DNA of 20,724 bases. Source: a virus. Positions 1,251-15,432 of the stretch are shown piece after piece. Each line of letters opens with the position of its first letter. Positions within the stretch are counted from its first letter, which is position 1. The position numbers were made by a program, and so were the translations under genes. The notes beneath the pieces were generated by a model. That model made no database searches, had not been told where the DNA came from, and saw nothing but the letters and a program-made list of their open reading frames with translations. The stretch is from IMG/VR virus record IMGVR_UViG_3300030104_005682, positions 1 to 20,724 of that record; one strand, 5' to 3'.

Positions 1251-1574
1251 TTAATGAATATGTTGTTTAAGAATTTGTTCTCGTAATGGTGCGTTAAATT
1301 GGGTTATAAATGATTCCCAATTGGTTGTTCCTTTTTCCTGATTACATTTGAAACAGGCACAAACACTGTTCTTGGTATTGGTGGGACCACCCATAGACTT
1401 AGGATGGACATGATCAATAGTAAGTTCAGTAGTGTCATAAGAGTTTCCGCAATAAATGCATGTATTGTCAAAGTATTCTTTAATAGCACGCCTCCATAGG
1501 CGTTTGGCTTCTGGTGACGTCATAGCTATTAGGTTGTAGAGGTAATTGTCAGGATGTTGGAACAAAGGTGTCAT
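1251..1574 (-). CDS. HNH endonuclease, zinc-ribbon type
   Basis: This 107-residue protein carries a complete HNH signature: C39-x2-C42, then D54-H55 in LTIDHVHPKSMGG, N69, then C74-x2-C77-N78 followed by KG. The two Cys pairs would bind a structural zinc. D54/H55 with N69 and N78 form the beta-beta-alpha metal active site that cuts or nicks DNA. The layout matches the general phage and restriction-type HNH family (HNH, PF01844-like). Its ATG overlaps the stop of the preceding HNH gene by ATGA, so translation is coupled. The gene sits two places downstream of the small-terminase candidate. HNH proteins beside terminases are known to help packaging in some tailed phages (for example HK97 gp74), but they may also be free-standing homing endonucleases. 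The sequence does not separate these options. Confidence 0.88.
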   Translation of the reverse strand: MTPLFQHPDNYLYNLIAMTSPEAKRLWRRAIKEYFDNTCIYCGNSYDTTELTIDHVHPKSMGGPTNTKNSVCACFKCNQEKGTTNWESFITQFNAPLREQILKQHIH

Positions 1575-2048: not shown

Positions 2049-2199
2049 CTAGTAGCTCCCGTTTGATTAGATTGACGGCATAGTCATCAACGAGGTTATC
2101 TGTACGCTTTGCATAGGCAGATAGAAGCTCTACAACAAGCTTCTTTACTGAATCACTGGCAAGGAAGCTAAAAAGAATGGGTTTAATTAATGTAATCAT
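2029..2199 (-). CDS. Small conserved-looking protein of unknown function (56 aa)
   Basis: ATG 2199 to TGA 2031-2029 gives 56 residues. The N-terminus is hydrophobic (ITLIKPILFSFLAS, residues 2-15), followed by an amphipathic charged segment with a Lys-Arg-Thr-Asp-Asn centre and an acidic end (GEEEGN). Its ATG overlaps the stop of the upstream holin-like gene by ATGA, and its own 3' end overlaps the next gene by 20 bases. The tight coupling on both sides and the absence of frame breaks argue that it is real although short. The first 15 residues could insert in or lie on a membrane, so a lysis accessory role next to a holin-like protein is possible. No family is recognised. Confidence 0.72.
   Translation of the reverse strand: MITLIKPILFSFLASDSVKKLVVELLSAYAKRTDNLVDDYAVNLIKRELLGEEEGN
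2056..2060 (-). promoter_or_regulatory. Shine-Dalgarno GGGAG supporting a GTG start
   Basis: GGGAG is seven bases upstream of GTG 2048, which supports that non-ATG start. It lies within the end of the 56-residue upstream gene. Confidence 0.65.
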
Positions 2200-2423
2200 T
2201 TGAAGATAATTTTGTCTAGTTTGTTTTCAATCCGCACCATGTGCTCTTCCACCCGTCCTAAAGCACTAGCGAATTCACTCTTTGATATGTATTCTTCAGC
2301 AACACGTAATTCAACACCATCAACACGACGATCAAGTTCATGGACCCGTGAGTGGATACGGGTAATGAGAATGCTAAATCCGGTAGCTAAAGCGACACCC
2401 ACGGGGATAATCGACTCAAGCAT
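2196..2423 (-). CDS. Holin-like membrane protein with C-terminal coiled coil
   Basis: This 75-residue protein has one N-terminal hydrophobic segment (about residues 3-21, IIPVGVALATGFSILIT), then a long charged helix with heptad-like spacing (about 24-73) predicted to form a coiled coil. The position just after the tail fibres and before the gp18-like gene matches T7 gene 17.5, a small class II holin (67 residues). The combination of one membrane span and a coiled coil also resembles the XhlA-like phage lysis proteins, although in XhlA the order is reversed. A role in membrane permeabilisation for lysis is therefore inferred from position and topology. A spanin subunit or a membrane-anchored structural protein is the alternative. 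It starts 12 bases after the tailspike stop and no Shine-Dalgarno is visible. Confidence 0.6.
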   Translation of the reverse strand: MLESIIPVGVALATGFSILITRIHSRVHELDRRVDGVELRVAEEYISKSEFASALGRVEEHMVRIENKLDKIIFK

Positions 2424-2435
2424 TGTATTTAAAAA

Positions 2436-5186
2436 TTAGGGTTTAAAATCAGGATTATTTTGAATGGAATTACCACCATCATTATCTTGAATATCAAGAC
2501 CATCAGGACCATCGTCACGGCGTTGAATAAAAGTGTTACCAATAATGGCGCAGCCTTTAGCCTTACTAATAGTTATATAACTAACTGTGTCATAGTAACA
2601 AGTATTACCAATAATTGCAGCACCTACAAGACCTCCACCACCAGTAACAGTAAGCAATTTCCCACCATGATCGATTGTATTGCCTTGAAAAACAAGTCCA
2701 TAATTAGGAACACTTTCATCCTTTCCAACAACATCAGTTTCAATTAAAACAGCACCCTCTGAGTTTGTAAAAACATGGAAAGTATTACCCATGATTGAAG
2801 TACGTCTAAAACCTATATCTCCTTGTATTCCAGAAGCTTCATCATTATTGTAAACAATCTGGACACCAGCTTTAACATTCTTAGCTGTTTTCATGCGGTT
2901 ATTATGGAACTTAAGATTACGACCATTATATAGTAATCCTACATGACTAGAGTTGTTAGCATTTAAGTTAAAATCACAATCCATAAAAGAACTATCACCA
3001 TCATCTTTCTCTGGGTATTTACTTCCGGCACAAGCGTTGTTACTACGACCAGAAGGATTTCTGGCAAGTATAATTCCAGGATTACTACCAGTATCACATA
3101 TAAACTCTAGGTTTCTAACATTAACAGCTGATTCAAACCTCATCGTACCGCTAAGTCTAATAGAAGAACTAATACCATCTCCAAAGATAGAAACCTGACG
3201 TGGCGCAGCAAGATCTTCTAAAGTAGTTGCACCTATTTCGTAAATACCAGTAGGAAAATAAATACCAAGATTAGGCGGAGTATTACCATTACTATGGCAT
3301 ATACGGGCTCTACGATTTATTTCATCAAAAGCAGCCTGAACAGCAGCTGTATTCGTACCGTAACTTCTAACATTAACAACGTCAGTAGGAATACCAGTAC
3401 TGTCATGTGTGTGCTCTGGGACCGTATTGTTATTATTATTATTACCTACTTCATCTGCACGGGGAAGCCACTGACCCTGAGTACTAGCATTAGGTTTAAT
3501 AAATTTAAGAACATCACCATTAGAAGGATTCCCGACATTAACATTGCTCAGGTTATTGAGACTCAGGCTAAAGTTACCAAACTCGTCTGGACCAATGTTA
3601 TTAATTTTTTTAATAGCACCACTACCACCCTCATCATCATCATCATCAGGGTTAGTAGTATTAGTTTCTACTGGTTTAAGGGTAAAGGCGTCTCCGTCAT
3701 TTTGACCAGGTACTTTTACATTTAGGTTACCGTCTTGATAGTAGATCCTGCCTTTTGCATCACCATTATAATCACCAAAATCTATATAACCACCGACGGA
3801 CTTAGGAGTACCGCCATCATGCCGAAGATTGATACCACCATCTGAACCGTTAAGTATTACCTTGTTGTTACCATTACTATTTTGCAGATAAATAATAGCA
3901 TTTAAATTATCATCGATAACATTATCTGGATTATCTTGAATTATAACATCTTTAAGGGTTGGTGTAGGAGCAGTAGTTTCCTCATGTGAGTGATCAGAAG
4001 AAGCAAAATCACCCGGCGACTTATCACCTAACATATCAGCACTATCAGCTTTAAAAGCCCTAACTGCTCTAAGAAATTTTTGACTGCCTGAATCAAAGTT
4101 AGCGACATAATCAGCAGAAATTTTATCATTTCCTATTTCTCCTGTAACTTGAACACCTCTGGCAATTTTGTTCGCAACACTAATTTGATTCGGTGTGGTA
4201 TCAGTGTCAATATTAATAGTACTTGAACCTTGATATGTTTTACCAGGATCAGGGTCGGGAGCATCTTCTAAAGCCTTAATGCGATTCAGATAATGACTTG
4301 GTGGGAGTCCATTTTCATTAGCATCAGTGCCAAAGTACTTAGCAAAATCAGCTTCTTTAGCCTTCAAATATTGACCTAGCTTGTTATCGGCATCATATTG
4401 ACCATTAACAACATAATTACCCTTATTAGTAACAGTCCTAGCAATATTTTGGTTAACATTAATTGCACTGGTTCCATCAATACTGAGTCCTGTACCAGCA
4501 GTAAATGGCAGTACTACTGTTGCTTCATCTGTATCAACAATATTGATTGATTTTGATAATTCACCGTCGTAAGTAATTGTAGTTGTGGGACTGTCAGTAG
4601 CAGGGTCAAGACCAGCTCCGTAGTAATTAATAGTTAACGCATTAGCAACCTTGTCAGCCGTATCAGCTGTAGCAGCATTACCAGAAGTGTTAGCGTCAAT
4701 AGAAGTAGGCAGCCTTGCTTTATCTAGTTCGCCAGCATTAATGTTATCAGCATTACGATAATAATCTGGTAACTGGTTATCTAACTTTGATGCATTGGTT
4801 GCAGAAGCAGCAGAACCAGTAGTGTTGGCGTCAATAGAAGTAGGCAGCCTTGCTTTATCTAGTTCGCCAGTTGCATTAGCTAGATTGTTGTAGTAACCAG
4901 GATCTTCATTAGCTAGTTTAGCTGCATTACCGGCTGAACTTACCGAAAAGGGAGTACCAGAATAAGAACCACTAATAACACCAAGATTAGCATTAAAGTT
5001 CTCGTTCTTTGCAATATAAAGTTCAGGATTAACATTAATACCTTTAGAACTCCATGCACCTGAGTTCCCATCAGGAGATAGGACCCAAGTGTATGCAATA
5101 GAGTTATAGACAAACTGGTCGCCTTCCTGTAAAGGTCCTGAACCTAAACCAGCTTCTTGTCTATTAGTCGGGAAGTTAGCAGACAT
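2436..5186 (-). CDS. Tailspike / receptor-binding protein with predicted beta-helix (916 aa)
   Basis: Virion surface protein. Residues 1-50 form a small Trp/Gly-rich module (GDQFVYNSIAYTWV...W). Residues 85-180 contain repeated segments with ELDKARLPTSIDANT at 108-122 and again at 153-167, separated by NA/SK-type stretches typical of fibre shafts. Residues 390-405 have the DHSHEE motif often seen in fibres; a second H-rich turn (EHTHDS) is at 591-596. Low-complexity linkers D514-D518 and N582-N587 separate domains. From about 602 the sequence reads as a pectate-lyase-3-type right-handed beta-helix (VVNVRSYG, AVQAAFDEI, GIYFPTGIY, then repeated GNTF/GNTI-type rungs up to 885). Such domains bind or cut cell-surface polysaccharide; no catalytic residues can be assigned, so depolymerase activity is unproven. 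It overlaps the S74 fibre gene by TGATG and has a strong Shine-Dalgarno. Confidence 0.82.
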   Translation of the reverse strand: MSANFPTNRQEAGLGSGPLQEGDQFVYNSIAYTWVLSPDGNSGAWSSKGINVNPELYIAKNENFNANLGVISGSYSGTPFSVSSAGNAAKLANEDPGYYNNLANATGELDKARLPTSIDANTTGSAASATNASKLDNQLPDYYRNADNINAGELDKARLPTSIDANTSGNAATADTADKVANALTINYYGAGLDPATDSPTTTITYDGELSKSINIVDTDEATVVLPFTAGTGLSIDGTSAINVNQNIARTVTNKGNYVVNGQYDADNKLGQYLKAKEADFAKYFGTDANENGLPPSHYLNRIKALEDAPDPDPGKTYQGSSTINIDTDTTPNQISVANKIARGVQVTGEIGNDKISADYVANFDSGSQKFLRAVRAFKADSADMLGDKSPGDFASSDHSHEETTAPTPTLKDVIIQDNPDNVIDDNLNAIIYLQNSNGNNKVILNGSDGGINLRHDGGTPKSVGGYIDFGDYNGDAKGRIYYQDGNLNVKVPGQNDGDAFTLKPVETNTTNPDDDDDEGGSGAIKKINNIGPDEFGNFSLSLNNLSNVNVGNPSNGDVLKFIKPNASTQGQWLPRADEVGNNNNNNTVPEHTHDSTGIPTDVVNVRSYGTNTAAVQAAFDEINRRARICHSNGNTPPNLGIYFPTGIYEIGATTLEDLAAPRQVSIFGDGISSSIRLSGTMRFESAVNVRNLEFICDTGSNPGIILARNPSGRSNNACAGSKYPEKDDGDSSFMDCDFNLNANNSSHVGLLYNGRNLKFHNNRMKTAKNVKAGVQIVYNNDEASGIQGDIGFRRTSIMGNTFHVFTNSEGAVLIETDVVGKDESVPNYGLVFQGNTIDHGGKLLTVTGGGGLVGAAIIGNTCYYDTVSYITISKAKGCAIIGNTFIQRRDDGPDGLDIQDNDGGNSIQNNPDFKP
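3426..3443. repeat. AAT/AAC codon run (six Asn) in the tailspike
   Basis: Six Asn codons in a row (minus strand AAT x4, AAC, AAT) encode residues 582-587, just before the beta-helix. It is a trinucleotide microsatellite, so slippage changes linker length without shifting frame. Confidence 0.85.
3633..3647. repeat. GAT codon run (five Asp) in the tailspike
   Basis: Five consecutive Asp codons encode residues 514-518, followed by Glu and Gly/Ser-rich sequence. It marks a flexible acidic linker between fibre domains. Confidence 0.85.
4686..4735. repeat. 50-bp direct repeat, copy 1
   Basis: This 50-bp segment recurs at 4821-4870 with one mismatch (A to G at its seventh base), 135 bp apart start to start. 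Both copies encode the shaft motif ELDKARLPTSIDANT in frame. The near identity at DNA level implies recent duplication or gene conversion. Confidence 0.9.
4821..4870. repeat. 50-bp direct repeat, copy 2
   Basis: Second copy of the repeat at 4686-4735, 49 of 50 bases identical. Recombination between copies would delete or add exactly 45 residues without a frameshift. Confidence 0.9.
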
Positions 5187-6985
5187 CAGTCACCTCCATT
5201 GTTTTCCAACTCTTCAACACGAGCAGTTAGTTCAGCAACTGCACCAAGTAGTTTCATGATCAGAGCATCGTGACTGATGCCCTTGTAGCTGTCGTCTAAC
5301 TCTTCGTAAGTAGCAGGTGTGACTTGCTCTTCAGTGACGAGAACTTGCTCGGTTGTTTCAGCTTCAACGACTTCGCCTTCGTCATCAAGTACAGCTGGAA
5401 CTGTTCTTGTTTCATACACAGCAGGTACGACAACTTCAGGAGTTAGTTCTGCACCTTGCTTAGTGCGAGCAATGGTCTTAACGATGCCAGGGCAGATTAC
5501 TTCAACTTCTTGTGCAATAAGACCAAGGAAGCGTGTGTCTTTATCTGCAACAGGTGCATCAGAAGACCAATCCCAGTTACGGAGACTGTTGCCTAGTGCG
5601 GTTACATCAGCAAGCTGTGGGTTTGCATCAGTAATGTTTTCTTTAAACCGTTGATCTGAGGTGAGGACTGAACCTTGGGCTGAGACGGTGCCAGCGAAGA
5701 CAGCAGTTCCGTCATGACCGTTTAACGTGACATTTGAAACACTTGTTCCAGTTGCTTTTGCTTTAAGGTATAAAGAAGTGCCAACTCCACTTTGATAAAA
5801 GCCACCTTGATTAACACCACCATCATCTAGGTTGAAAATATAAGAACCGGAAGTAGCTGATGCTTGAATTGGACCAGAAAATTCAGCCGACCCATCTGTA
5901 TTAATGGAACTGGTGCTATTCTCTGTGCCTACCGTATATCCTTCGAAGACCGTACCGCTGGTGTTTGCGGCTCTTAAAGTCCCGTATTGGTTGAAAGAGG
6001 TTCCGCGTCCGGCTCCACTATTTGGGTCACTGCCAGATATTACGGTGCCGCCAAATGTAGCCTCGCCGTTCGCCTTCATATTAATTGAAGAGGCTGACCC
6101 ATTTATGCCAGAGTTCCATACATCACTACTACCACCGCTTCTTGTGGCGTACACATCTCCACTTGCGGAAATACCTGAGTACCCAGAAGCAAATGTACCG
6201 GCGCCTGTAGCAGTTATACCTGCTTTTAGGTTTGAACTAGCATCAGTAACCGCAAATCCATATTGAGTTCCTCCTACGTTTGCAGAAATCATGCTGAAAA
6301 CATTTGAAAAACGATTACTAGTTATGAGTCCCTTAAATTCAGCCGTGCCATCTGCTGAAATTGCTACATTTTTTGTGCTACTACCTTGAACGTAACCAGA
6401 AAGAATTGTTGAACTTCCAGACGCTTGAGTCGCATGAATACCACCTGTTGGATACAGTTGAGCACCAGCCGCAGCGCCGTTTAATGCAGCACCACCAACA
6501 GTTAAAGTTGACCCGAATGAAGAGGTGCCATCACTATTTAGGGAAGTGTTTGACGAACCAACAGAATTACCGCCAAGAAATGCACCACCGCCGAACCATC
6601 CTCTACCATCAGAAGTAAGGCTAATTTTAGAAGTAGAGTCATCTCCAGTTGCTTTTACTTGGATAGAACTTGAATTTTTAATTGACAAATTACCCTTAAA
6701 CTCAGAGCTACCATTACCAGCATCAAGAGTAATTTTATCGGTGCCAAGTGTTAGATCACCGGTCATATTTGCACCAGCTACTCGAACATAGCGTGCATCA
6801 GTATCATGGTAAGTATCGTTGCTATCAGCGATAACATTTAGATTACCATAGGTTGTAGTACCGTCGCCGATTTTAAGTGTTTTTAGATCAGTATCATAGC
6901 AAAATTCACCAGAAGCAGGTACTTTACTTGCATGAGTTGTCCAATTACCTGTAGTATCACGACGTACTTGAATTTTAGTTGTCAT
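5186..6985 (-). CDS. Tail fibre with C-terminal S74 self-cleaving chaperone (599 aa)
   Basis: Homotrimeric fibre protein. Residues 3-53 match the small N-terminal module found on many phage fibres and tropism proteins (IQVRRDTTGNW... then LKIGDGTTTYGNL). The shaft, about 80-440, holds eight or so short repeats of the form DG-x-A-x-F-x-G-x-(V/I), near residues 90, 126, 152, 212, 261, 306, 364 and 425. The C-terminal Peptidase_S74 intramolecular chaperone begins with SDQRFKENI: Ser443 and Lys448 have the spacing of the known S/K catalytic pair, and cleavage would be expected just before Ser443. GLIAQEVE (488-495) is the second family hallmark. A coiled coil (about 575-595) ends the protein. The released chaperone guides trimer folding. 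The gene ends by TGATG overlap into the tailspike gene. Function as fibre is firm; receptor unknown. Confidence 0.9.
   Translation of the reverse strand: MTTKIQVRRDTTGNWTTHASKVPASGEFCYDTDLKTLKIGDGTTTYGNLNVIADSNDTYHDTDARYVRVAGANMTGDLTLGTDKITLDAGNGSSEFKGNLSIKNSSSIQVKATGDDSTSKISLTSDGRGWFGGGAFLGGNSVGSSNTSLNSDGTSSFGSTLTVGGAALNGAAAGAQLYPTGGIHATQASGSSTILSGYVQGSSTKNVAISADGTAEFKGLITSNRFSNVFSMISANVGGTQYGFAVTDASSNLKAGITATGAGTFASGYSGISASGDVYATRSGGSSDVWNSGINGSASSINMKANGEATFGGTVISGSDPNSGAGRGTSFNQYGTLRAANTSGTVFEGYTVGTENSTSSINTDGSAEFSGPIQASATSGSYIFNLDDGGVNQGGFYQSGVGTSLYLKAKATGTSVSNVTLNGHDGTAVFAGTVSAQGSVLTSDQRFKENITDANPQLADVTALGNSLRNWDWSSDAPVADKDTRFLGLIAQEVEVICPGIVKTIARTKQGAELTPEVVVPAVYETRTVPAVLDDEGEVVEAETTEQVLVTEEQVTPATYEELDDSYKGISHDALIMKLLGAVAELTARVEELENNGGD
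5190..5197 (-). promoter_or_regulatory. Strong Shine-Dalgarno (GGAGGTGA) for the tailspike gene
   Basis: GGAGG ends six bases before ATG 5186, an optimal distance, and sits inside the last codons of the S74 fibre gene. It is the strongest ribosome site in the window. Confidence 0.85.
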
Positions 6986-7009
6986 AGTTAATTAGAAAAA
7001 AGTTAGGCA

Positions 7010-7645
7010 TCATGATGCTGCAGATCCAGCGTCTATAGAGTCAGTAAAGACAGCTCCGGCATTTTGAGCACCACCATCAGTATCAGGTTGAGTAAATATT
7101 GCACCAGCATTTGGATAACCACCATCAATAACATCAACCGCATTAAGGATGTTTTCTACATTATTTAGTCGATCTGCGAGGTCTGTAACAGCAGATTCTA
7201 GTTCAAGGATTCTAGCGTCTTGAGTTTGTTGAGCAGATAGTATTGAACTTTCTATATCATCAACATAAGAAGTATCAGCAGTAATAGTTACAGTACCTTT
7301 ACCACTCAATGGTGAAATTAAAATACCAGAACCAGGTTTAATTTCAGATACAGCATTTTCTAAAACTGATTGACTAAGAAAAGATTCAAGACGTGTGTAA
7401 TCTACTTCAACAAAAGCAGGTGAGGCGTCAACCCACTGTGTAGAGTCACCATCGTCATACCATATAAAAAGGTTACCTTGTCTGGGAGACCACCACAGAG
7501 TGCCTTCTACAGGTGTAGGAGGTGGATTTAAACTTACTTTAACAACAGGGTCTGAACTGTAAGCTGCTTTTAAAGCTCTTGATTCAACACTAAATAGTTT
7601 ACCACCTCTTGAAATAGCAAATTTGTCATTTTCAATAAGAGGCAT
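7010..7645 (-). CDS. Tail fibre-associated structural protein (211 aa)
   Basis: Probable virion adhesin component. The N-terminus (ENDKFAISRGGKLFSV, residues 5-20) resembles that of the upstream 320-residue protein and may dock on the tail. Residues 49-72 form the Trp-rich module LWWSPRQGNLFIWYDDG..TQWV, seen in many marine phage structural proteins. Residues 110-125 are beta-rich, and 129-170 form a predicted coiled coil, probably a trimerisation helix. The C-terminus repeats NAGAIFT (179-185) and NAGAVFT (195-201) joined by a DTDGG linker and ends in DAGSAAS. No enzymatic motif is seen. The ATG is two bases after the stop of the upstream gene; 24 bases without a terminator separate it from the S74 fibre gene. 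The exact role is unknown. Confidence 0.72.
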   Translation of the reverse strand: MPLIENDKFAISRGGKLFSVESRALKAAYSSDPVVKVSLNPPPTPVEGTLWWSPRQGNLFIWYDDGDSTQWVDASPAFVEVDYTRLESFLSQSVLENAVSEIKPGSGILISPLSGKGTVTITADTSYVDDIESSILSAQQTQDARILELESAVTDLADRLNNVENILNAVDVIDGGYPNAGAIFTQPDTDGGAQNAGAVFTDSIDAGSAAS

Positions 7646-7647
7646 AG

Positions 7648-8610
7648 TCAGGAAGGCAGAGGACTTAGAAGGTCAAAGTTACGTGGTGTGTAATATTGAT
7701 AAAGGAGGTTAGGTGTGACAGCATGTACTTTAGAAAGATCGCCATCATCCTCGTTTATATCTCCAGAATCAGGATTTACATCATCAGCTCTTGGAGCTAG
7801 GAATACACCTGGTGTGGTTGTACCAGCTAGAGCAACCTCAACATTTCGAGTAGTGCCAGTAGCACTTACAGAAACAGAAGCAGGTAAATTAGAAGCGACA
7901 CCACCATATGATGTACCGTTATAAGTTTGATCCCACCTAGTTGGTGGACTACTATCTACTACACTATTGAAGGCTATAACTGCATCAGCAATTGAGTCCT
8001 GAATATCTTTGTTAGTAGAAAACAGTAAATCAGCTGTAACAGCAAAAGTAGGGTTAGGACTAGATGTGACACCAGTAGTAGGAGTTACATCATCGCTAAC
8101 AGCAAGACCATCTACACCACCACTACGATCACTACGAGTGCTAGGTACTGTAGTGCTAGAATCTAAAGCTGTAAGAAGATTGACTTCAGGTTGTGCAGCA
8201 TTAGTATTATCAACTGAGATACCGTCACCAGCAGCTACACCAGTAAGGGTACCTGAACCGCTGCCACCACCGCTATTATCTAAAACATACCAAGCTGAGT
8301 CAGAAGAAGAATAAATAACCTGATCACCCAGCTCTACTGTTGCACTAGCAGGAACAGAAGTTCCCCATGCAAATGTAGCTCCTCCAGATGTCGCATCACT
8401 ATTGACATACATATCACCATTACTAGGGTTAGCTGGTGTTGCAGTACTGTCAGAGAAATTAGCAGTACCCTTAAAGTAGACTGCTGCTTGAGTATTAAGG
8501 AACTCAGAAATCTGTGCAGCTGTAGCTTTATAAGTACCTTTATCAGTTGCACCTGTGCTATTTGTAGGACGCTGAACAACAAATAGGTCAGTAGATTTTA
8601 AACTAGACAT
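7648..8610 (-). CDS. Tail fibre-associated structural protein (320 aa)
   Basis: Probable virion adhesin component. The N-terminus SLKSTDLFVVQRP...YKATAAQISEFL (residues 3-38) is a pattern common at the start of marine phage fibre proteins and related to the next protein. Residues 60-115 contain two Gly/Asp/Tyr/Trp turns (GDMYVNSDA, GDQVIYSSSDSAWYV) that look like small beta-sandwich or carbohydrate-binding modules. A Gly/Ser linker at about 113-121 (GGGSGSG) leads to a Thr/Ser/Val-rich beta region. The C-terminal third repeats a VTADLLF / VTPNLLY element. No cysteine cluster, signal peptide or enzyme motif is seen. The ATG is two bases from the upstream adaptor stop (TAA-TT-ATG), indicating coupling. 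I infer a distal or side fibre part; the exact role is unknown. Confidence 0.7.
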   Translation of the reverse strand: MSSLKSTDLFVVQRPTNSTGATDKGTYKATAAQISEFLNTQAAVYFKGTANFSDSTATPANPSNGDMYVNSDATSGGATFAWGTSVPASATVELGDQVIYSSSDSAWYVLDNSGGGSGSGTLTGVAAGDGISVDNTNAAQPEVNLLTALDSSTTVPSTRSDRSGGVDGLAVSDDVTPTTGVTSSPNPTFAVTADLLFSTNKDIQDSIADAVIAFNSVVDSSPPTRWDQTYNGTSYGGVASNLPASVSVSATGTTRNVEVALAGTTTPGVFLAPRADDVNPDSGDINEDDGDLSKVHAVTPNLLYQYYTPRNFDLLSPLPS

Positions 8611-8612
8611 AA

Positions 8613-9101
8613 TTAATTAAAAATTTGATTGAGAGTAGTAATATCAAAACCTATATTGTAGGTATTTGTAGCTTGATTATAAGTTTGAGTGATTGGGTTA
8701 GTGGTTTGCACTAGAGTTGTTTTACCACCTCCAGTAACACCACCTCCTCCGCTCATACAACGTGAATCTTCAATAGCAAACTGAAGCTGTTCAAAATTGT
8801 CATTTAAATCTCCAGCTTTAACTGGATGACCTGGTTGAAAGGTTGCCCTTAATGAGTCAACATCTGTCAGCCTATAAATAATAAATTCAGTTCCAGCAGT
8901 CGGTGCCTGTAAGAACCTAATGATGTTAGTTGAGTCTAATCGTGACCAATTTGTCGATTCAACATATTCCCTATTAGCATCATCATAAATAGCTACATAG
9001 AGATCTTCATTCTTGATAATTTCAAAGCTAAATAGGTAATCAGTGTCACTACCACTAGCTGTATAGTATTCGATTGTTTTACAACCTAGATCTAAGGACA
9101 T
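8613..9101 (-). CDS. Tail fibre adaptor, T7 gp17 N-terminal domain-like (162 aa)
   Basis: This 162-residue protein corresponds to the tail-attachment N-terminal domain of T7 gp17 (phage T7 tail fibre family PF03906), without the long shaft and tip of the T7 protein (553 residues). Recognisable are an early YLFSFEIIKNEDLYVAIYD stretch, the DSTNIIRFLQAPTAGTEFIIYR strand pattern, and the hallmark FQPGHPVKAGDLNDNFEQL (88-106). A Gly-rich linker (118-126) and a short beta-rich end follow. It would bind the tubular tail at the gp11/gp12 junction and carry the separate fibre proteins encoded downstream. Splitting of the fibre into adaptor plus distal subunits is common in marine podoviruses. It starts two bases after the gp16-like stop. 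Confidence 0.85.
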   Translation of the reverse strand: MSLDLGCKTIEYYTASGSDTDYLFSFEIIKNEDLYVAIYDDANREYVESTNWSRLDSTNIIRFLQAPTAGTEFIIYRLTDVDSLRATFQPGHPVKAGDLNDNFEQLQFAIEDSRCMSGGGGVTGGGKTTLVQTTNPITQTYNQATNTYNIGFDITTLNQIFN

Positions 9102-9103
9102 AG

Positions 9104-12100
9104 TTATCTATTTTTTGTTTTGTCGAGAATTACTTGAATATCAGCAGTTAGGCTGTTGTTATTTGTACGTACGTCTTCAGCTCTACGTTCTAATATTGTT
9201 CCACCTTGTAGTGCATCTAGTTCACGAATAGCCTCTTCCTTAGCAAGGTTTAGATAACGATCAAGCTCTGAATGAATGTTGGCAAAGTTCTTAAGCTGTG
9301 GTGTCATACCCTCAGCCTGTGCTGCCCTAAATGCCTCACGGAACTCCTTACCATCAGTAGAACGCATGACACGTTGAATAGCTTTCTTGAATGTTTTATT
9401 CTTACCCATCAGTCTTGCTATATCAGACTGTTCTTGTGGAGTTAGTTGGACACCTCTTCCATCAGTAGCCATTGAAGGACGTTTGTCATATTCAACATTA
9501 ATCAAGAACTGTTTTTCAGGACTGATCTTGCCGCTTACTTTCCAAGGACTATAAGTGTTGTATAAACGTGCAAAGAAGTTATCAGGTACGCCAATTTCAC
9601 CACCGTCAACAAAATCATACTCTTTAGGTAGAGCAAGTTTTGCAGGTGTACGGTTAGCAAGCATCGCTGCTAGGTTCTCTTCTACCACACGAAGATTAGG
9701 GGACATCAAACGTGTTAGTTCAGCCATCTGACTGGAACCAGGCATGACTGCAGCAGGTAGGAAGCTAGCTGCCCATCTGTTAATGGCAGCAGGGTTTCCA
9801 CTCAGAATGTCATATAAAGGTTCAATACCAGCAAGCATTGACTTATCAGTAATGGTTGCACTAAGTACAAAACCCATACCACTCAGTAGTTGATTTACAT
9901 CGCCTTCACCAAGGACGTCAAAGTTATCCATGATGTCAGCTGTTAATGCTAACCAATCAGTAACAGCACCAAGGTTGTCGTAGCTGACCCAATTACCACC
10001 AGGAATTTTAATTGATCTAGGTTTCCAATCTACTGATCTACGAAGTTGTTGCTTCTGTCTATCAAAGAAACCATTACCAGTAATACTGTCATTCATCATT
10101 AGACCAACAGCAGACATGGTTGCAAGTGTTCCGATAGCTTTACGACCTTTCATCTCAGCACGTATAGCATTGTATGCAATTTCAGCATTCTCATCAAATG
10201 GAATACCTCTAGCATCTAATAGCTTTTGTGCTTGAGCAGCAGGTATCTGATCAAAAGATCTACCAAACTGATTGACCTCATCAATAAACAATCCCATAGG
10301 ACTGTGTGATGCAGCAAAACCCATCATGTTGATAGGTGTTTTAGTAAAGAGAAGGAAAGGTTTTAATGCAGGGACATGTCGTATAACTTGAGATAAAGCT
10401 GTATTAGGAGCATTATCCAGGTTCATAGCAATCTCACCAGAAGCACGTCTTACGGCTTCATCGGAAACAATTGCCCTACCCTTTTCATCTAGTTTCCAGA
10501 TCTGCTTATATGATGCTTCTGCTAGTTGATCGATAGCATCAGCATCAATATTGGCATTCCTTGCTATCTCATCAAAAGCTCTACCTCGTGCTTCTACATT
10601 GCCTATAACAGCCTGTGTAAAGCCGTCAGCAGCCTGCATAGCGCGTGTTCCAAACCGTAACCATGGATGCTGGGTTAAGTCGTTAATAGCCTCAATCTGA
10701 GCCATCATGGCTTGAGGTCCAAAGTCACCTTCAGCAGCCTTTGCATCAGCAAAAGCATTCATTACTTCTAGTTGCTTGGTATTCTGTTGAACCATCGATT
10801 CACGACCGGCAACACCAGAATAATTAGGATCAAGTGCAGACCTCCGCATGGTTTCACCCATGTACTTCAGTCCTTTTCTCAAGGAATCACCCATAGCTGA
10901 GTATTGATACCAGCCACGACGCATCATATATTTGTCACCTTGCAGGAAAGATCCAGCAAGTGTAGTAATAGGACGTTCAATCAATAAAATAGCGTTAGCA
11001 GCTGCAGCTTTAATTGGTGTAGCAAATGCAGACAACGTAGCGTTATAGACATTTGCCCAGAATCCCTGCATTACAACAGAAGGAATCTCAGGCTGACGAT
11101 CAATAAACGCCTTACGTAAGACACCAGTTGATTGACGCATATAATTATTCAATGCATCAATAGTCTTGACATTGCCATCTGTAGCTTCATATGCCAACAG
11201 CAATGGACCAAGCATATCTGGACGTTTCTGACTGATCTCACGAAGAGTATCAACAGTCTGTTTAGATTCAGCTTTGAGCTGTGCTGTTATATCTGCACCC
11301 TTCTTACGTAGTTCATCAGGTGATAGAGGTTTGAAACCACGCTTAGCAGTATCCAACATCTTCAACAGGAAGCCACGTTGCTTACCTGTCTCACCATTAG
11401 CTATCATCAATAACTCAATACGATCCAGGAGCTGTTCCTGTAGACGTGGAGTAGCAGCAGTACCGTCAGCAAGACGTGCAGCAAAGGACATATCAGAAAC
11501 TTGTCCAGCAACACTGGTTCTTACCAAGGCATCAGAAACATCGCCATACTGCTTCATTGCTGTTTTTAGCTGTTCTTTGACAGCTCTAGCAGCATCGGAA
11601 GACAACATCTTGGCACCAGTATCAGGGTTAATACCTGTCTGGAATCGTTTGAGAAGCTGATCAATCTCACCATTAGTCATGTAACCCATATCCTTAGCCA
11701 GCTGTTCACCAGCATCAGTAATGGTCTTACTATTAATAAGCCGACCGTCATTCAGCTTGTATCCATACTCACCGGCATCAGATAGTGAATCACGTAGACC
11801 ACGCATAACAGTGTCATACTCTTCAACACCATCTAAAGCAAACTTCAAAGCAGGCTCAGTCATTACTGAACCAAGACGACCATAAGTAGAATCAAGGTTA
11901 TTCTGAACCCTTACCAAATCAACAGAAGCTCCAACAACACCTAGATCATCAGCAGTACGAATACCCATTTCTTCATAGCCATACATGTCATGTAAGCCAA
12001 AAATAGGTTCATCTAGGTTCTGTGATTTAGAGAAGTTATAACTACCAATACTGTCTAGATCATCAGAACGTTTAGCGGCACTCTTAGCAATGACCTCTTC

Positions 12101-12937
12101 TACATCATCAGATGCTTCTTCAAGATTACTAGCTAGCCATTTCTTTGCTTTTTCAGACTCAGGAATCCACTTAGTGGCGTTTCGTACACCTTGTGCATTC
12201 CTAAGAATAGTGGCGAATCCACCAGCGACATCAGCAAAGATACCAAGACCAGTGCCTTCAGTGGCGTTTTTAATTCGTTTAACATCAGGACTATCTGTAT
12301 CTAAGGTGGCAATATCATCAGGAATCCACGCATAAGTACGAGGAAACATTTTCTTTAGTGAACCAGATAGGTTATCACCTTCTGATGTTTCAGAAATAAA
12401 GTCAACTGTTGCACCAGCATAAGCACTAAACCCAGTCCTTCCAAGCCATTTAACAAATGGATCCGAAAATAGTTTTACTTTAGATCCTTTAGCTGCAGCA
12501 TCAAGAGCGCCAATGCCTGTCATAGACAAAGCTACAGTAGGTGCTACGACAGAAGTTATCTCCCGTACTGCCTGGGCAACTTCATTCTCATACTTAGGTA
12601 ATTTAGGTGCATTAAGACCAGTCAAGTTGACAGCATCAACTACCCAGTCAGAAACACCTGCAAATAGTTCTTCACCAGGTCTTACTTCCTTACCGCCAAG
12701 GATGTCTTCTTTAGACATACCCTTGAATTCAAGTTTACCTGATTCTTCTTTTGGTTTCTCCGCCTTAGCGGGTTCTTCTGTTGGTTTTGCCTGTGGTGTA
12801 GGTGAAGCTTCAGATTCCTCTTGAGGAGCTGCTACTTGTAATTCAGCCGCCTCTTGAGCGGCTTGCATCTTAAGTAGATCATCTTCATCTACACTTCCAG
12901 GTTCACCATTGAAGATTTGATCAATGGGATCTGTCAT
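9104..12937 (-). CDS. Internal virion (ejection) protein, T7 gp16-like (1277 aa)
   Basis: Large core protein expected to be injected with the DNA and to line the trans-envelope channel. Length (1277) and place after gp15 fit T7 gp16 (1318). The N-terminus (1-35) is acidic; residues 36-68 are a Pro/Glu/Lys/Ala disordered linker. Then comes a hydrophobic segment at about 127-149 (VVAPTVALSMTGIGALDAAA), long helical regions with few Cys, and a hydrophobic stretch KAIGTLATMSAVGLMM further along. Unlike T7 gp16, the N-terminus has no lytic transglycosylase motif; that domain is on the upstream gp15-like protein. The ATG overlaps the gp15 stop by ATGA. Assignment rests on position, size and helical composition, since this family diverges strongly. 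Confidence 0.85.
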   Translation of the reverse strand: MTDPIDQIFNGEPGSVDEDDLLKMQAAQEAAELQVAAPQEESEASPTPQAKPTEEPAKAEKPKEESGKLEFKGMSKEDILGGKEVRPGEELFAGVSDWVVDAVNLTGLNAPKLPKYENEVAQAVREITSVVAPTVALSMTGIGALDAAAKGSKVKLFSDPFVKWLGRTGFSAYAGATVDFISETSEGDNLSGSLKKMFPRTYAWIPDDIATLDTDSPDVKRIKNATEGTGLGIFADVAGGFATILRNAQGVRNATKWIPESEKAKKWLASNLEEASDDVEEVIAKSAAKRSDDLDSIGSYNFSKSQNLDEPIFGLHDMYGYEEMGIRTADDLGVVGASVDLVRVQNNLDSTYGRLGSVMTEPALKFALDGVEEYDTVMRGLRDSLSDAGEYGYKLNDGRLINSKTITDAGEQLAKDMGYMTNGEIDQLLKRFQTGINPDTGAKMLSSDAARAVKEQLKTAMKQYGDVSDALVRTSVAGQVSDMSFAARLADGTAATPRLQEQLLDRIELLMIANGETGKQRGFLLKMLDTAKRGFKPLSPDELRKKGADITAQLKAESKQTVDTLREISQKRPDMLGPLLLAYEATDGNVKTIDALNNYMRQSTGVLRKAFIDRQPEIPSVVMQGFWANVYNATLSAFATPIKAAAANAILLIERPITTLAGSFLQGDKYMMRRGWYQYSAMGDSLRKGLKYMGETMRRSALDPNYSGVAGRESMVQQNTKQLEVMNAFADAKAAEGDFGPQAMMAQIEAINDLTQHPWLRFGTRAMQAADGFTQAVIGNVEARGRAFDEIARNANIDADAIDQLAEASYKQIWKLDEKGRAIVSDEAVRRASGEIAMNLDNAPNTALSQVIRHVPALKPFLLFTKTPINMMGFAASHSPMGLFIDEVNQFGRSFDQIPAAQAQKLLDARGIPFDENAEIAYNAIRAEMKGRKAIGTLATMSAVGLMMNDSITGNGFFDRQKQQLRRSVDWKPRSIKIPGGNWVSYDNLGAVTDWLALTADIMDNFDVLGEGDVNQLLSGMGFVLSATITDKSMLAGIEPLYDILSGNPAAINRWAASFLPAAVMPGSSQMAELTRLMSPNLRVVEENLAAMLANRTPAKLALPKEYDFVDGGEIGVPDNFFARLYNTYSPWKVSGKISPEKQFLINVEYDKRPSMATDGRGVQLTPQEQSDIARLMGKNKTFKKAIQRVMRSTDGKEFREAFRAAQAEGMTPQLKNFANIHSELDRYLNLAKEEAIRELDALQGGTILERRAEDVRTNNNSLTADIQVILDKTKNR

Positions 12938-15432
12938 AGTTGTTGTTGAATAGAGGAACGCATAGTTCCTGGATCAGATAGTGCTCTTTGTCCATAGCCA
13001 TACTTACCAGCTTTTTCAATAACCAAACCGTAGTATTCTTGGCTTTCTATATTGTCAGGAATAGGACCACCAAATTCCTGAACATTACCTTCACCAGCAT
13101 TATAAGCAGTAATAGCTAGATAGTAATTACCATTAAACATATCAAGCAAACGCCTGAGATAATTAGCAGCATAGAAAATAGCTTCTTCAGGATTTAGAGG
13201 ATTAACACCAGGATGATATTTAGTCATAATCTGTGCAATACCTAAAGCACCTGCACTTGAAGGAACAGTCCCATCAATCACTTCAGGACGATAGGCACTT
13301 TCTTGATCTAGCAATCCAGCAAGAATTGAGGGATCAATATTTTCTTTGGATGCTGCATCAGCAATAATTTCACCATATCCACCAGGTACAAGTTCAGGAT
13401 TATATTGAGTCTGACCGACCAAACCACGAGCAGTACGTTCTGGTGTTTTAAATTGTCTAAGTAGTCTTTGTTGTGTAGATGTTAATTGATTTTGTATTAC
13501 CTCATAAGCAGGTGTAGCTGGTAAAGCCTCCATTCCATTTGTCTCTCTAAGTTTATTAATTAGTGAAAGTGGATCCATATCTAATATGTCTGCTGCATAC
13601 TCAACTGCTGGACTAGGGCTCCAGCCTTCTTCTCCATATCCTTTCTCCATTGCTTCCAATTGAGGCTTGTTGAAAAGAACAACATTCATACCATCATCTG
13701 GAAGATCCAAAGCATTCGTACCTAGTTTTAGTACACCATTCACACGAGCAATCTCTCGTTCGTTTGCTTGCTGTGAAGCAGGGTTAAACGTAGGAATAGC
13801 AGATGGATAAGGTAAAGATAGGCTCTTTAAACTTCCACCATCTTTGAAAGCATCACTGGCTTTAAACTCTGCCATTAGCTGAGCCAACGCTTTATTAGCT
13901 GGATCAGGCTCACCCGCTAATGCGTAAGTAGAAACAAGTTGATGGAACCTTCTCTTTTGTTTAGCAACCATCAAACCAACACTTGGATGGTTTTTAACGA
14001 TTCCATCTACTGTTGTTGGTGCCTCAACCATATCTTTAATGGCTTCTTCTATTTCTTTAAAGTCACCATTTTCCTTGCGTAAATTAGCTTGTGTTTGTGC
14101 TTGAGATAGATACTTCTTCTGCAACTTAGGATCAAACTGCTTTAACCTTTCAGGTGTCAGTAGATTCATAGCCATTAAGCCTTCAATCTGTTCTTCCTGT
14201 ACCTTTCGGGTCTTAGCATCAACAGTGTTCTTCTTAAGAACTGCTAGCTCTTGACTTTCAAAACCATACCTATCCCTTAGTGTATTAATAGCATCATCAA
14301 TTTGATCATCGGTAAAGCCATCACCATCTGAACTATCAAGGAATGCTTGGCGTAGATCTTCTTCAGCTTGCTTAAATTCAGTCAGTCTTTCTGCTTCTGA
14401 TTCTTGGAAGATCTTTCTTGATTCAGCACTGACCTGACGTTGCATCTTGGCAAACCTAGCTTGGTATCTCTCTCCATAGGTACGACCCTTGGAATCACCA
14501 GGAATCTTTTGACCTTTCATGATCTCAACATCAGTAGCAGTCAGGATGCCTGCTTGAAGAGCCTGTGTAATACGTTGATCAAACAAAGCCCACGAACCTT
14601 TATAACCAAGAGGTTTACCATTACTATCAACAGTATTACGTGTAGCGTCTAAAAATGCAGTAACATCAAGATCAGATGAAATTAAATTAGCTGCTTCGTC
14701 TTGACGAATTGCAGAGTCATCTTTAGCAAACTGCTTAGACCAGGCACTTACTGCTCTTGCGTCAACCTCAATCATCTTTGGATAAACTGTACTAGCTAGG
14801 AATTGAGGTGGTAAACCTGTCAACCCAGCACGTCTAGCAAATTCTTTAGATGCTATACGTCGAGCCGAGATATAAGAAGCACGATCTTTATAGTCTTCAG
14901 GTTTTACAAGTTGCTCCATAAAACTGCCATACTCATTTAAGGCGCCAATAGCAAACCCTTCAGCTTGTTTTACATTACTGAATGCAGTGCTTTTACCAAT
15001 AAGAGATGAAGCATCATAATTCTCACCATTATCACCTAAAACACCAGCTTCTACATCTGCAGCAACATGAGCTTCTTCTTTAGCTTGATCATATTGAAGA
15101 TTATAATCAGACATGTCAAGACCGCCACGTCTATATAAATCAAGACCTTTTGCTAAATCTTCTGCGTCTTGCTCTTCTTTCCTTTCTTTAGCAATATCAC
15201 CAAGCAGGTTAGATAACTTGCCGGAAAACTTACCAAGGGCGATAAGACCATCACCAGAGTCTTGTGCATTCTGGATACGGACTTGATTGTTACGTCTAAC
15301 TTGTGCCAGAGCTTCTTCATCTGCTCTATTAAGGCGTGCATTTTTACGATCTAAAGTTCGTGTCAGGTCAACCTGTTGTACTGGATCAAAACCTTCACCT
15401 TGGAAGTGATCATTAAATTGTAGTTGTTCCAT
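12934..15432 (-). CDS. Internal virion protein, T7 gp15-like with C-terminal lytic transglycosylase (832 aa)
   Basis: Core protein ejected with the genome. Residues 1-680 are predicted mostly helical, charged and rich in Gln/Glu/Lys, as in T7 gp15 (747 residues). Residues about 690-810 form an SLT lytic transglycosylase domain: ILAGLLDQESAYRPEV with catalytic Glu711, SAGALGIAQIM (726-736), and AYNAGEGNV (776-784). These three blocks are the family motifs ES, GxxQ and AYNxG. The enzyme would cut peptidoglycan strands to let the ejected tube through the wall. In T7 this domain is at the N-terminus of gp16, so here it is fused to the neighbouring protein. The start overlaps the gp14 stop (TAATG) and the end overlaps gp16 (ATGA). 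Confidence 0.9.
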   Translation of the reverse strand: MEQLQFNDHFQGEGFDPVQQVDLTRTLDRKNARLNRADEEALAQVRRNNQVRIQNAQDSGDGLIALGKFSGKLSNLLGDIAKERKEEQDAEDLAKGLDLYRRGGLDMSDYNLQYDQAKEEAHVAADVEAGVLGDNGENYDASSLIGKSTAFSNVKQAEGFAIGALNEYGSFMEQLVKPEDYKDRASYISARRIASKEFARRAGLTGLPPQFLASTVYPKMIEVDARAVSAWSKQFAKDDSAIRQDEAANLISSDLDVTAFLDATRNTVDSNGKPLGYKGSWALFDQRITQALQAGILTATDVEIMKGQKIPGDSKGRTYGERYQARFAKMQRQVSAESRKIFQESEAERLTEFKQAEEDLRQAFLDSSDGDGFTDDQIDDAINTLRDRYGFESQELAVLKKNTVDAKTRKVQEEQIEGLMAMNLLTPERLKQFDPKLQKKYLSQAQTQANLRKENGDFKEIEEAIKDMVEAPTTVDGIVKNHPSVGLMVAKQKRRFHQLVSTYALAGEPDPANKALAQLMAEFKASDAFKDGGSLKSLSLPYPSAIPTFNPASQQANEREIARVNGVLKLGTNALDLPDDGMNVVLFNKPQLEAMEKGYGEEGWSPSPAVEYAADILDMDPLSLINKLRETNGMEALPATPAYEVIQNQLTSTQQRLLRQFKTPERTARGLVGQTQYNPELVPGGYGEIIADAASKENIDPSILAGLLDQESAYRPEVIDGTVPSSAGALGIAQIMTKYHPGVNPLNPEEAIFYAANYLRRLLDMFNGNYYLAITAYNAGEGNVQEFGGPIPDNIESQEYYGLVIEKAGKYGYGQRALSDPGTMRSSIQQQL

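Follow-up and report, generated by a model that had tools for sequence, protein, structure and literature searches.

A gp17 reduced to its docking domain at the head of a five-gene, probably receptor-binding cassette in an uncultured cyanopodovirus-like phage

Results

The locus and its five genes

The DNA analysed here (the window) is IMG/VR fragment IMGVR_UViG_3300030104_005682, a single uncultured contig of 20,724 bases, and our subject is the cassette of five genes that it carries directly after gp16 (Table 1). Its late genes lie on the minus strand in T7 order: capsid (frame cut at the right end), gp11, gp12, a gp13-like gene, gp14, gp15, gp16, the cassette, a small gene of 75 amino acids (aa), small terminase and HNH. 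The capsid, gp11 and gp14 genes are named from gene position, without a family search, whereas gp12 was assigned by phrog_457; the Pfam score of the gp13-like gene is under the cut-off. The closest isolate by gp16 is Synechococcus phage S-CBP4 (51.7% over 88%), followed by S-B28 and others, and on this account the phage is a short-tailed, cyanopodovirus-like one, with marine cyanobacteria as its probable host.

The initial annotation had placed five genes at 2436-9101, and these limits proved to be exact; all five lie head to tail on the minus strand. From the adaptor gene onwards they are separated by gaps of 2, 2 and 24 nucleotides (nt) and then by a one-base TGATG overlap (stop of open reading frame ORF599, start of ORF916), which makes a tight operon. 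An in-frame stop occurs 1-9 codons upstream of every ATG, and GC content is 0.14-0.28 at third codon positions against 0.40-0.56 at positions 1 and 2, a pattern of coding DNA. The five cassette genes are real. A comparison of the cassette DNA with 50,697 phage records gave no match, and a simple pattern for the common fibre-shaft repeat was found in none of the five proteins.

Table 1. Genes of the cassette and its immediate neighbours
Feature	Position	Strand	Description	Basis
gp16	9104..12937	-	Internal virion protein; upstream neighbour of the cassette	phrog_6651, E = 3.3e-289
Adaptor	8613..9101	-	Adaptor-only gp17, 162 aa: T7_tail docking domain and ~45 residues predicted to be disordered	PHROG, Pfam, profile, predicted fold
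ORF320	7648..8610	-	Dock-like motif at ~aa 1-45, no relatives detected for the remainder; putative shaft or connector	Dock comparison; family searches empty
ORF211	7010..7645	-	Dock-like motif at aa 1-36, WW..GNL..YDDGDS.QWV-type module at aa 38-75; proposed connector	PHROG; module and dock comparison
ORF599	5186..6985	-	Mtd_N at aa 5-44, shaft and tip, S74 chaperone at aa 443-502 (Ser443/Lys448); proposed distal part of a split fibre	Pfam
ORF916	2436..5186	-	NFP..GD..Y.W-type dock at aa 1-50, repeats, probable C-terminal beta-helix at ~aa 600-916; proposed separate tailspike	Dock test, structure model
75-aa gene	2196..2423	-	Small conserved gene directly after the cassette	phrog_12220 (family without assigned function)

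A gp17 that is only an adaptor

The first cassette gene had been called a short gp17-type adaptor, and family, profile and structure searches agree on the T7_tail domain and its fold. Against the PHROG tail-fibre families the best E-value is 3.4e-19, and Pfam Phage_T7_tail (PF03906) scores 25.6 bits, barely above the cut-off of 25.2. Searched by itself against PDB sequences, the protein gave no significant match (best E = 0.058), while a 24-row adaptor profile, the window included, matched T7 gp17 (2.6e-13) and the fibre of cyanophage P-SCSP1u (3e-10); antibody chains, which appeared in that search from E = 0.0014 upward, were judged to be chance matches. Our local hidden Markov models (HMMs) for adaptor, S74, ORF211 module and beta-helix were all refined on sets that include the window or its relatives, and their E-values are therefore not independent. 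The predicted fold consists of strands and then a helix at residues 96-117, and the predicted local distance difference test (pLDDT) falls below 50 for residues 116-162. This fold matched 28 PDB chains at E <= 0.001, every one from phage tail complexes.

The docking domain with its fold and the place after gp16 are shared with the gp17 of T7 and of cyanopodoviruses (P-SSP7, Syn5, P-SCSP1u gp28). However, gp17 is one long chain in P-SSP7 (715 aa) and Syn5 (1351 aa), whereas the window protein totals 162 aa and has neither shaft nor receptor-binding tip. The N-terminus of the P-SCSP1u fibre is a jelly roll plus helix, and the fibre trimers sit between the adaptor and nozzle docks (PMC10575957). 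For the docking domain of Vibrio phage Peru-2, a figure legend gives residues 1-112 and the text 1-160, and residues 113-160 are described as a hinge (preprint, PMC13320782). Since the predicted fold ends at ~117 and the Peru-2 domain and hinge together span 1-160, sequence and model together make the window protein a docking domain plus a hinge length, and nothing more.

It is also the shortest among the matches listed, with 162 aa against 235, 236, 377 and up to 1935 (n = 85 distinct complete gp17-type proteins). The survey covered 220 loci and the window and gave 171 matches at E 1e-8, which were reduced to 85 by dropping proteins open at a contig end and collapsing those with equal C-terminal 150 residues. 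It counts proteins rather than phages and was gathered around the window's adaptor (one scan took the best 80 loci), and is thus no survey of all phages. A run at a looser threshold yielded 51 gp17-type proteins, including one doubtful row (L058, 914 aa; L-numbers are labels of our comparison loci, several of them from uncultured phages). Short anchors and adaptors are already known in Klebsiella phages and coliphages (PMC6872550). A limited literature search found no description of an adaptor-only gp17 in a cyanopodovirus in the available parts of PMC10575957, PMC6872550, PMC3909814, PMC11440229, PMC10820202, PMC4646655, PMC8776855 and PMC13320782. A gp17 of only 236 aa is present in L055 (12787-13497; gp16 58%), where the next eight listed ORFs are all of 242 aa or less, possibly a minimal receptor-binding apparatus.

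The S74 tip

ORF599 is an S74 fibre, as initially proposed. Pfam S74 matches with E = 2.3e-7 and 31.5 bits (cut-off 22) and Mtd_N with E = 1.4e-12. From work on endosialidases, S74 processing involves a Ser and a Lys five apart; ORF599 has Ser443 and Lys448 at the expected spacing in its C-terminal Peptidase_S74 domain, and self-cleavage is putative. The protein had no match among PDB sequences. Relatives of its C-terminus, at 44-70% identity, are found in 14 loci (L175-L188). One of these, L177, has an ORF599-type tip on a separate gene and another, L178, has this gene cut; two further window genes, that of 75 aa (29.7%) and the HNH one (39%), have weak relatives in both contigs, which are perhaps from distant cyanopodoviruses.

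Relatives with the same parts in one chain

Two relatives possess the parts of the cassette fused within gp17. In L063, a gp17 of 1328 aa contains the adaptor (1-124), the ORF211 module (178-216) and S74 (1224-1281), and the genes that follow it, of 135 aa, 779 aa (a relative of ORF916) and 75 aa, are arranged much as in the window. The gp16 of this phage is 69% identical over the half that is present in the contig. In L185, a distant T7-like phage (gp16 22.6% over 755 columns), gp17 has 1038 aa, with the adaptor at 14-117, an ORF211-type module at 232-271 and the tip with S74 at 800-1036, the latter being 53% identical to residues 343-594 of ORF599; in Pfam its S74 scores 35.3 bits and its T7_tail 22.7 bits, under the cut-off of 25.2. 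L051 (gp16 70%) has adaptor and ORF211 module on a 480-aa gp17, in which no S74 was seen, and then an 811-aa relative of ORF916. The 75-aa gene likewise keeps the window's order in L051 and L063, but in both, adaptor and module share one gp17 chain. Because adaptor, ORF211 module and S74 tip are fused in L063 and L185, three of the window genes would correspond to one chain in order, and such a pattern, a fusion here and separate genes there, suggests from sequence that the parts work together.

The ORF211 module follows the adaptor within the gp17 of L051, L063, L053, L060 and L094/L097, and is present in 4/6 distinct complete gp17s of relatives with gp16 identity of at least 58%, a count that leaves out L050, L056 and L065, whose contigs end before or inside gp17. 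L056 is 90% identical in gp16, the gene in which its contig stops.

ORF320, ORF211 and their N-terminal docks

All four genes after the adaptor are separate, as initially described, but the label adhesin-like is not borne out by sequence for ORF320. Beyond its N-terminus this protein had no match in Pfam (E <= 10), PHROGs (E <= 1), PDB sequences (E <= 1) or the ORFs of all loci (E 0.1), and as a whole none in the phage collection (E 1e-3) or viral contigs. For ORF211, a single PDB match (E = 0.061) to an antibody domain was judged to be due to chance.

The N-termini of ORF320 and ORF211 are alike. A dock HMM listed just its own building proteins and is circular; the independent test is a comparison with 1280 background N-termini. 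The best score of the ORF211 dock, with gene 4001 of the T4-like cyanophage MA01 (Kyanoviridae), was reached by 0/1280. For the ORF320 dock, 0.08% of the background reach the score with a 452-aa gene of L053 and 0.9% that with MA01, a weak result. The ORF916 dock is like those of its L051 and L063 relatives and of three MA01 genes (0.08-0.23%; 0.16-0.23% for the MA01 genes alone, against a background that contains true relatives). Two further L053 genes (507 and 156 aa), alike by eye, fell outside the best 2%. These sequence likenesses suggest that cyanophage types exchange dock modules. One L053 gene (6679-8037) opens with two copies of the dock motif in tandem, at aa 1-28 and aa 26-61.

A probable beta-helix spike

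ORF916 had been named a beta-helix tailspike; its fold is borne out by structural comparison, at the low confidence of the model. Neither Pfam nor PHROGs gave a match for the protein itself, and it had none in the phage collection (E 1e-3), viral contigs or PDB sequences. Residues 580-916 are modelled as a helix and coils of short strands with a mean pLDDT of 55.4, a low confidence. Compared with the tailspike of cyanophage Pam1, this model gives a Z-score of 22.2 (258 aligned residues, root mean square deviation 3.8), and all listed rows have Z >= 18.8; Foldseek returned nothing at E <= 0.001, with beta-helix enzymes and tailspikes at the top of its list. A 4-row beta-helix profile matched glucanase (8e-9) and pectin lyase (7.4e-8), although the score may be due to one row, that of L053, which belongs to a Pfam pectate-lyase family. 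ORF916 therefore probably ends in a modelled beta-helix.

Across the full alignment, identity to ORF916 is 25% for the relative in L051 and 20% for that in L063. The 811-aa gene of L051 was detected at E = 5.3e-5, while the 779-aa gene of L063 is not linked by BLAST at 1e-3 but by the N-termini and the alignment.

The 1524-aa gp17 of L052/L054 carries a pectate-lyase-type stretch (1136-1236) within gp17 itself, whereas the probable beta-helix of the window is encoded apart from gp17, in ORF916. Two consecutive pectate-lyase-type genes occur in L010 (12388-14875); one has 676 aa, and the contig end truncates the other. In L097 (14797-19428; gp16 60%) a 1544-aa gene after gp17 combines Laminin_G_3, SPRY and DUF7483, a tip of another kind.

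Multi-gene cassettes in related phages

The single fibre gene of T7, the yardstick of the initial annotation, is a poor comparison because multi-gene fibre cassettes occur in several cyanopodoviruses. For instance, S-SBP1 and MedDCM-OCT-S45-C4 have several fibre-type genes after gp16, as the window has, but their gp17s are still long (1166 and 1089 aa, respectively). S-SBP1 possesses four annotated tail-fibre genes, and S74 was detected in one fibre-type gene at 39.8 bits; in S45-C4 the counterpart bears the annotation endosialidase, and its S74 score is 17.2 bits against a cut-off of 22. A search for S74 in the window and 96 loci, some of them the same phage, recovered 29 proteins (28 without a Syn5 duplicate). 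Nine of them (eight without the duplicate) are gp17 itself and the others lie on separate genes, and at least two S74 proteins are present in 6/96 loci (L009, L011, L026, L035, L041 and L059). By these sequence counts multi-gene fibre cassettes are ordinary among these phages, and the unusual feature of this cassette is the tiny gp17, not the number of fibre genes.

Carbohydrate-binding and tail-fibre proteins are the top identifiable genes of under-recruiting islands in marine phages (PMC3909814). In cyanopodoviruses, five core genes have incongruent trees, the tail-fibre gene among them (PMC4646655).

Neighbouring genes

In gp15 (gene at 12934-15432, minus strand) the C-terminal end, aa 689-786, is a transglycosylase SLT domain (Pfam 7.9e-18); in T7 this domain sits on gp16. 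An HNH endonuclease gene (1251-1574, minus strand; phrog_2214, E = 9.8e-26) lies near the small terminase gene, and similar proteins are present in L051, L053 and L055.

Discussion

With a probability of about one half, we read the cassette as one gp17-like fibre in pieces, namely an adaptor, one or more connectors and an S74 tip, together with a separate beta-helix spike. We infer the trimers, the assembly in one fibre, the order beyond the adaptor, the S74 cleavage and the role and attachment site of ORF916 as follows. The 162-aa protein would dock as trimers on the gp11/gp12 tail complex and have no other role, and ORF320 and ORF211 would extend it. ORF599 would form the distal part, with its S74 domain aiding trimer folding and then being cut off, so that adaptor, ORF320, ORF211 and ORF599 jointly replace the single gp17 chain of relatives. 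ORF916 would be a second, separate receptor-binding protein whose beta-helix may bind or cleave surface polysaccharide.

Several observations weigh against this assembly. Among the loci examined no other phage shows this split, and assembly is thus argued from the fused relatives. ORF320 is not explained by any relative, the ORF211 module is missing from two of the six near-relative gp17s (L052/L054 and L055), and it also occurs in unrelated proteins (L048, L049 and L098). Fibre genes of MA01 begin with docks that resemble those of ORF211 and ORF916, and the adaptor had no match at E <= 10 in the MA01 stretch examined; such docks need therefore not bind the adaptor. Moreover, L177, L181 and L182 have ORF599-type tips of 59-63% identity in genes of their own (407-519 aa, with N-termini of other kinds), in stretches where an adaptor match is likewise absent at E <= 10; because these loci carry such tips alone, that of ORF599 may have arrived as a separate gene and not from a broken gp17. 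The MA01 docks and these lone tips, together with the N-terminal modules that the downstream genes themselves possess, would also suit an arrangement in which ORF320, ORF211, ORF599 and ORF916 each form a small fibre or spike of their own, attached by their docks at different sites on the virion, while gp17 has lost all but its base. We consider this rather doubtful, as adaptor, ORF211 module and S74 tip are in one chain in L063 and L185.

The initial annotation was right in seeing two end-type proteins, an S74 fibre and a probable beta-helix spike, and two tip types are likely, but its suggestion of branched or alternative fibres finds no such support. A tipless docking protein with separate tip genes, as in the window, is known from SP6/K1-5 (gp37), Klebsiella KP32 (group D) and KP34 (group A), and the layout of K1-5 is a short adaptor with separate tip genes (PMC6872550). 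With its two tip types the cassette could be built likewise, the adaptor serving as a hub for at least two independent receptor-binding proteins, ORF599 and ORF916, side by side. However, the K1-5 adaptor has a T4gp10-like branching domain (PMC6872550), whereas the window adaptor continues past its docking domain for ~45 predicted disordered residues, which leave little room; beyond T7_tail it had no Pfam match at E <= 0.1, in a scan with no search aimed at T4gp10. Since L063 and L185 moreover hold the parts in one chain, a branched fibre seems unlikely.

It is very improbable that a long gp17 was broken by an assembly or sequencing error, even though the window is one uncultured contig whose split recurs in no second genome. 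A single frameshift within 22 nt could join ORF320 and ORF211, but the other junctions leave it 1 nt (adaptor/ORF320 and ORF599/ORF916) or no room, as ORF211 and ORF599 share a frame with two stops between them, so that more than one error would be needed; ORF320, besides, has no counterpart in any gp17 examined.

We propose tentatively, as a possibility with the odds somewhat against it, that a one-piece gp17 turned into a stack of separate segments with interchangeable docks, whose connectors and tips can be swapped as whole genes between short-tailed and contractile-tailed cyanophages.

Conclusions

The cassette seems to be an unusual arrangement of familiar parts. If its pieces assemble, a T7-like tail would carry a segmented fibre, as the long fibre of T4 is, with the docking domain as a stand-alone part. 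The cassette would then show tip change by whole-gene swap and offer a small, separately testable set of proteins for the study of how segments join. Should the pieces not form a single fibre, the cassette would still clearly show a gp17 cut back to its base.

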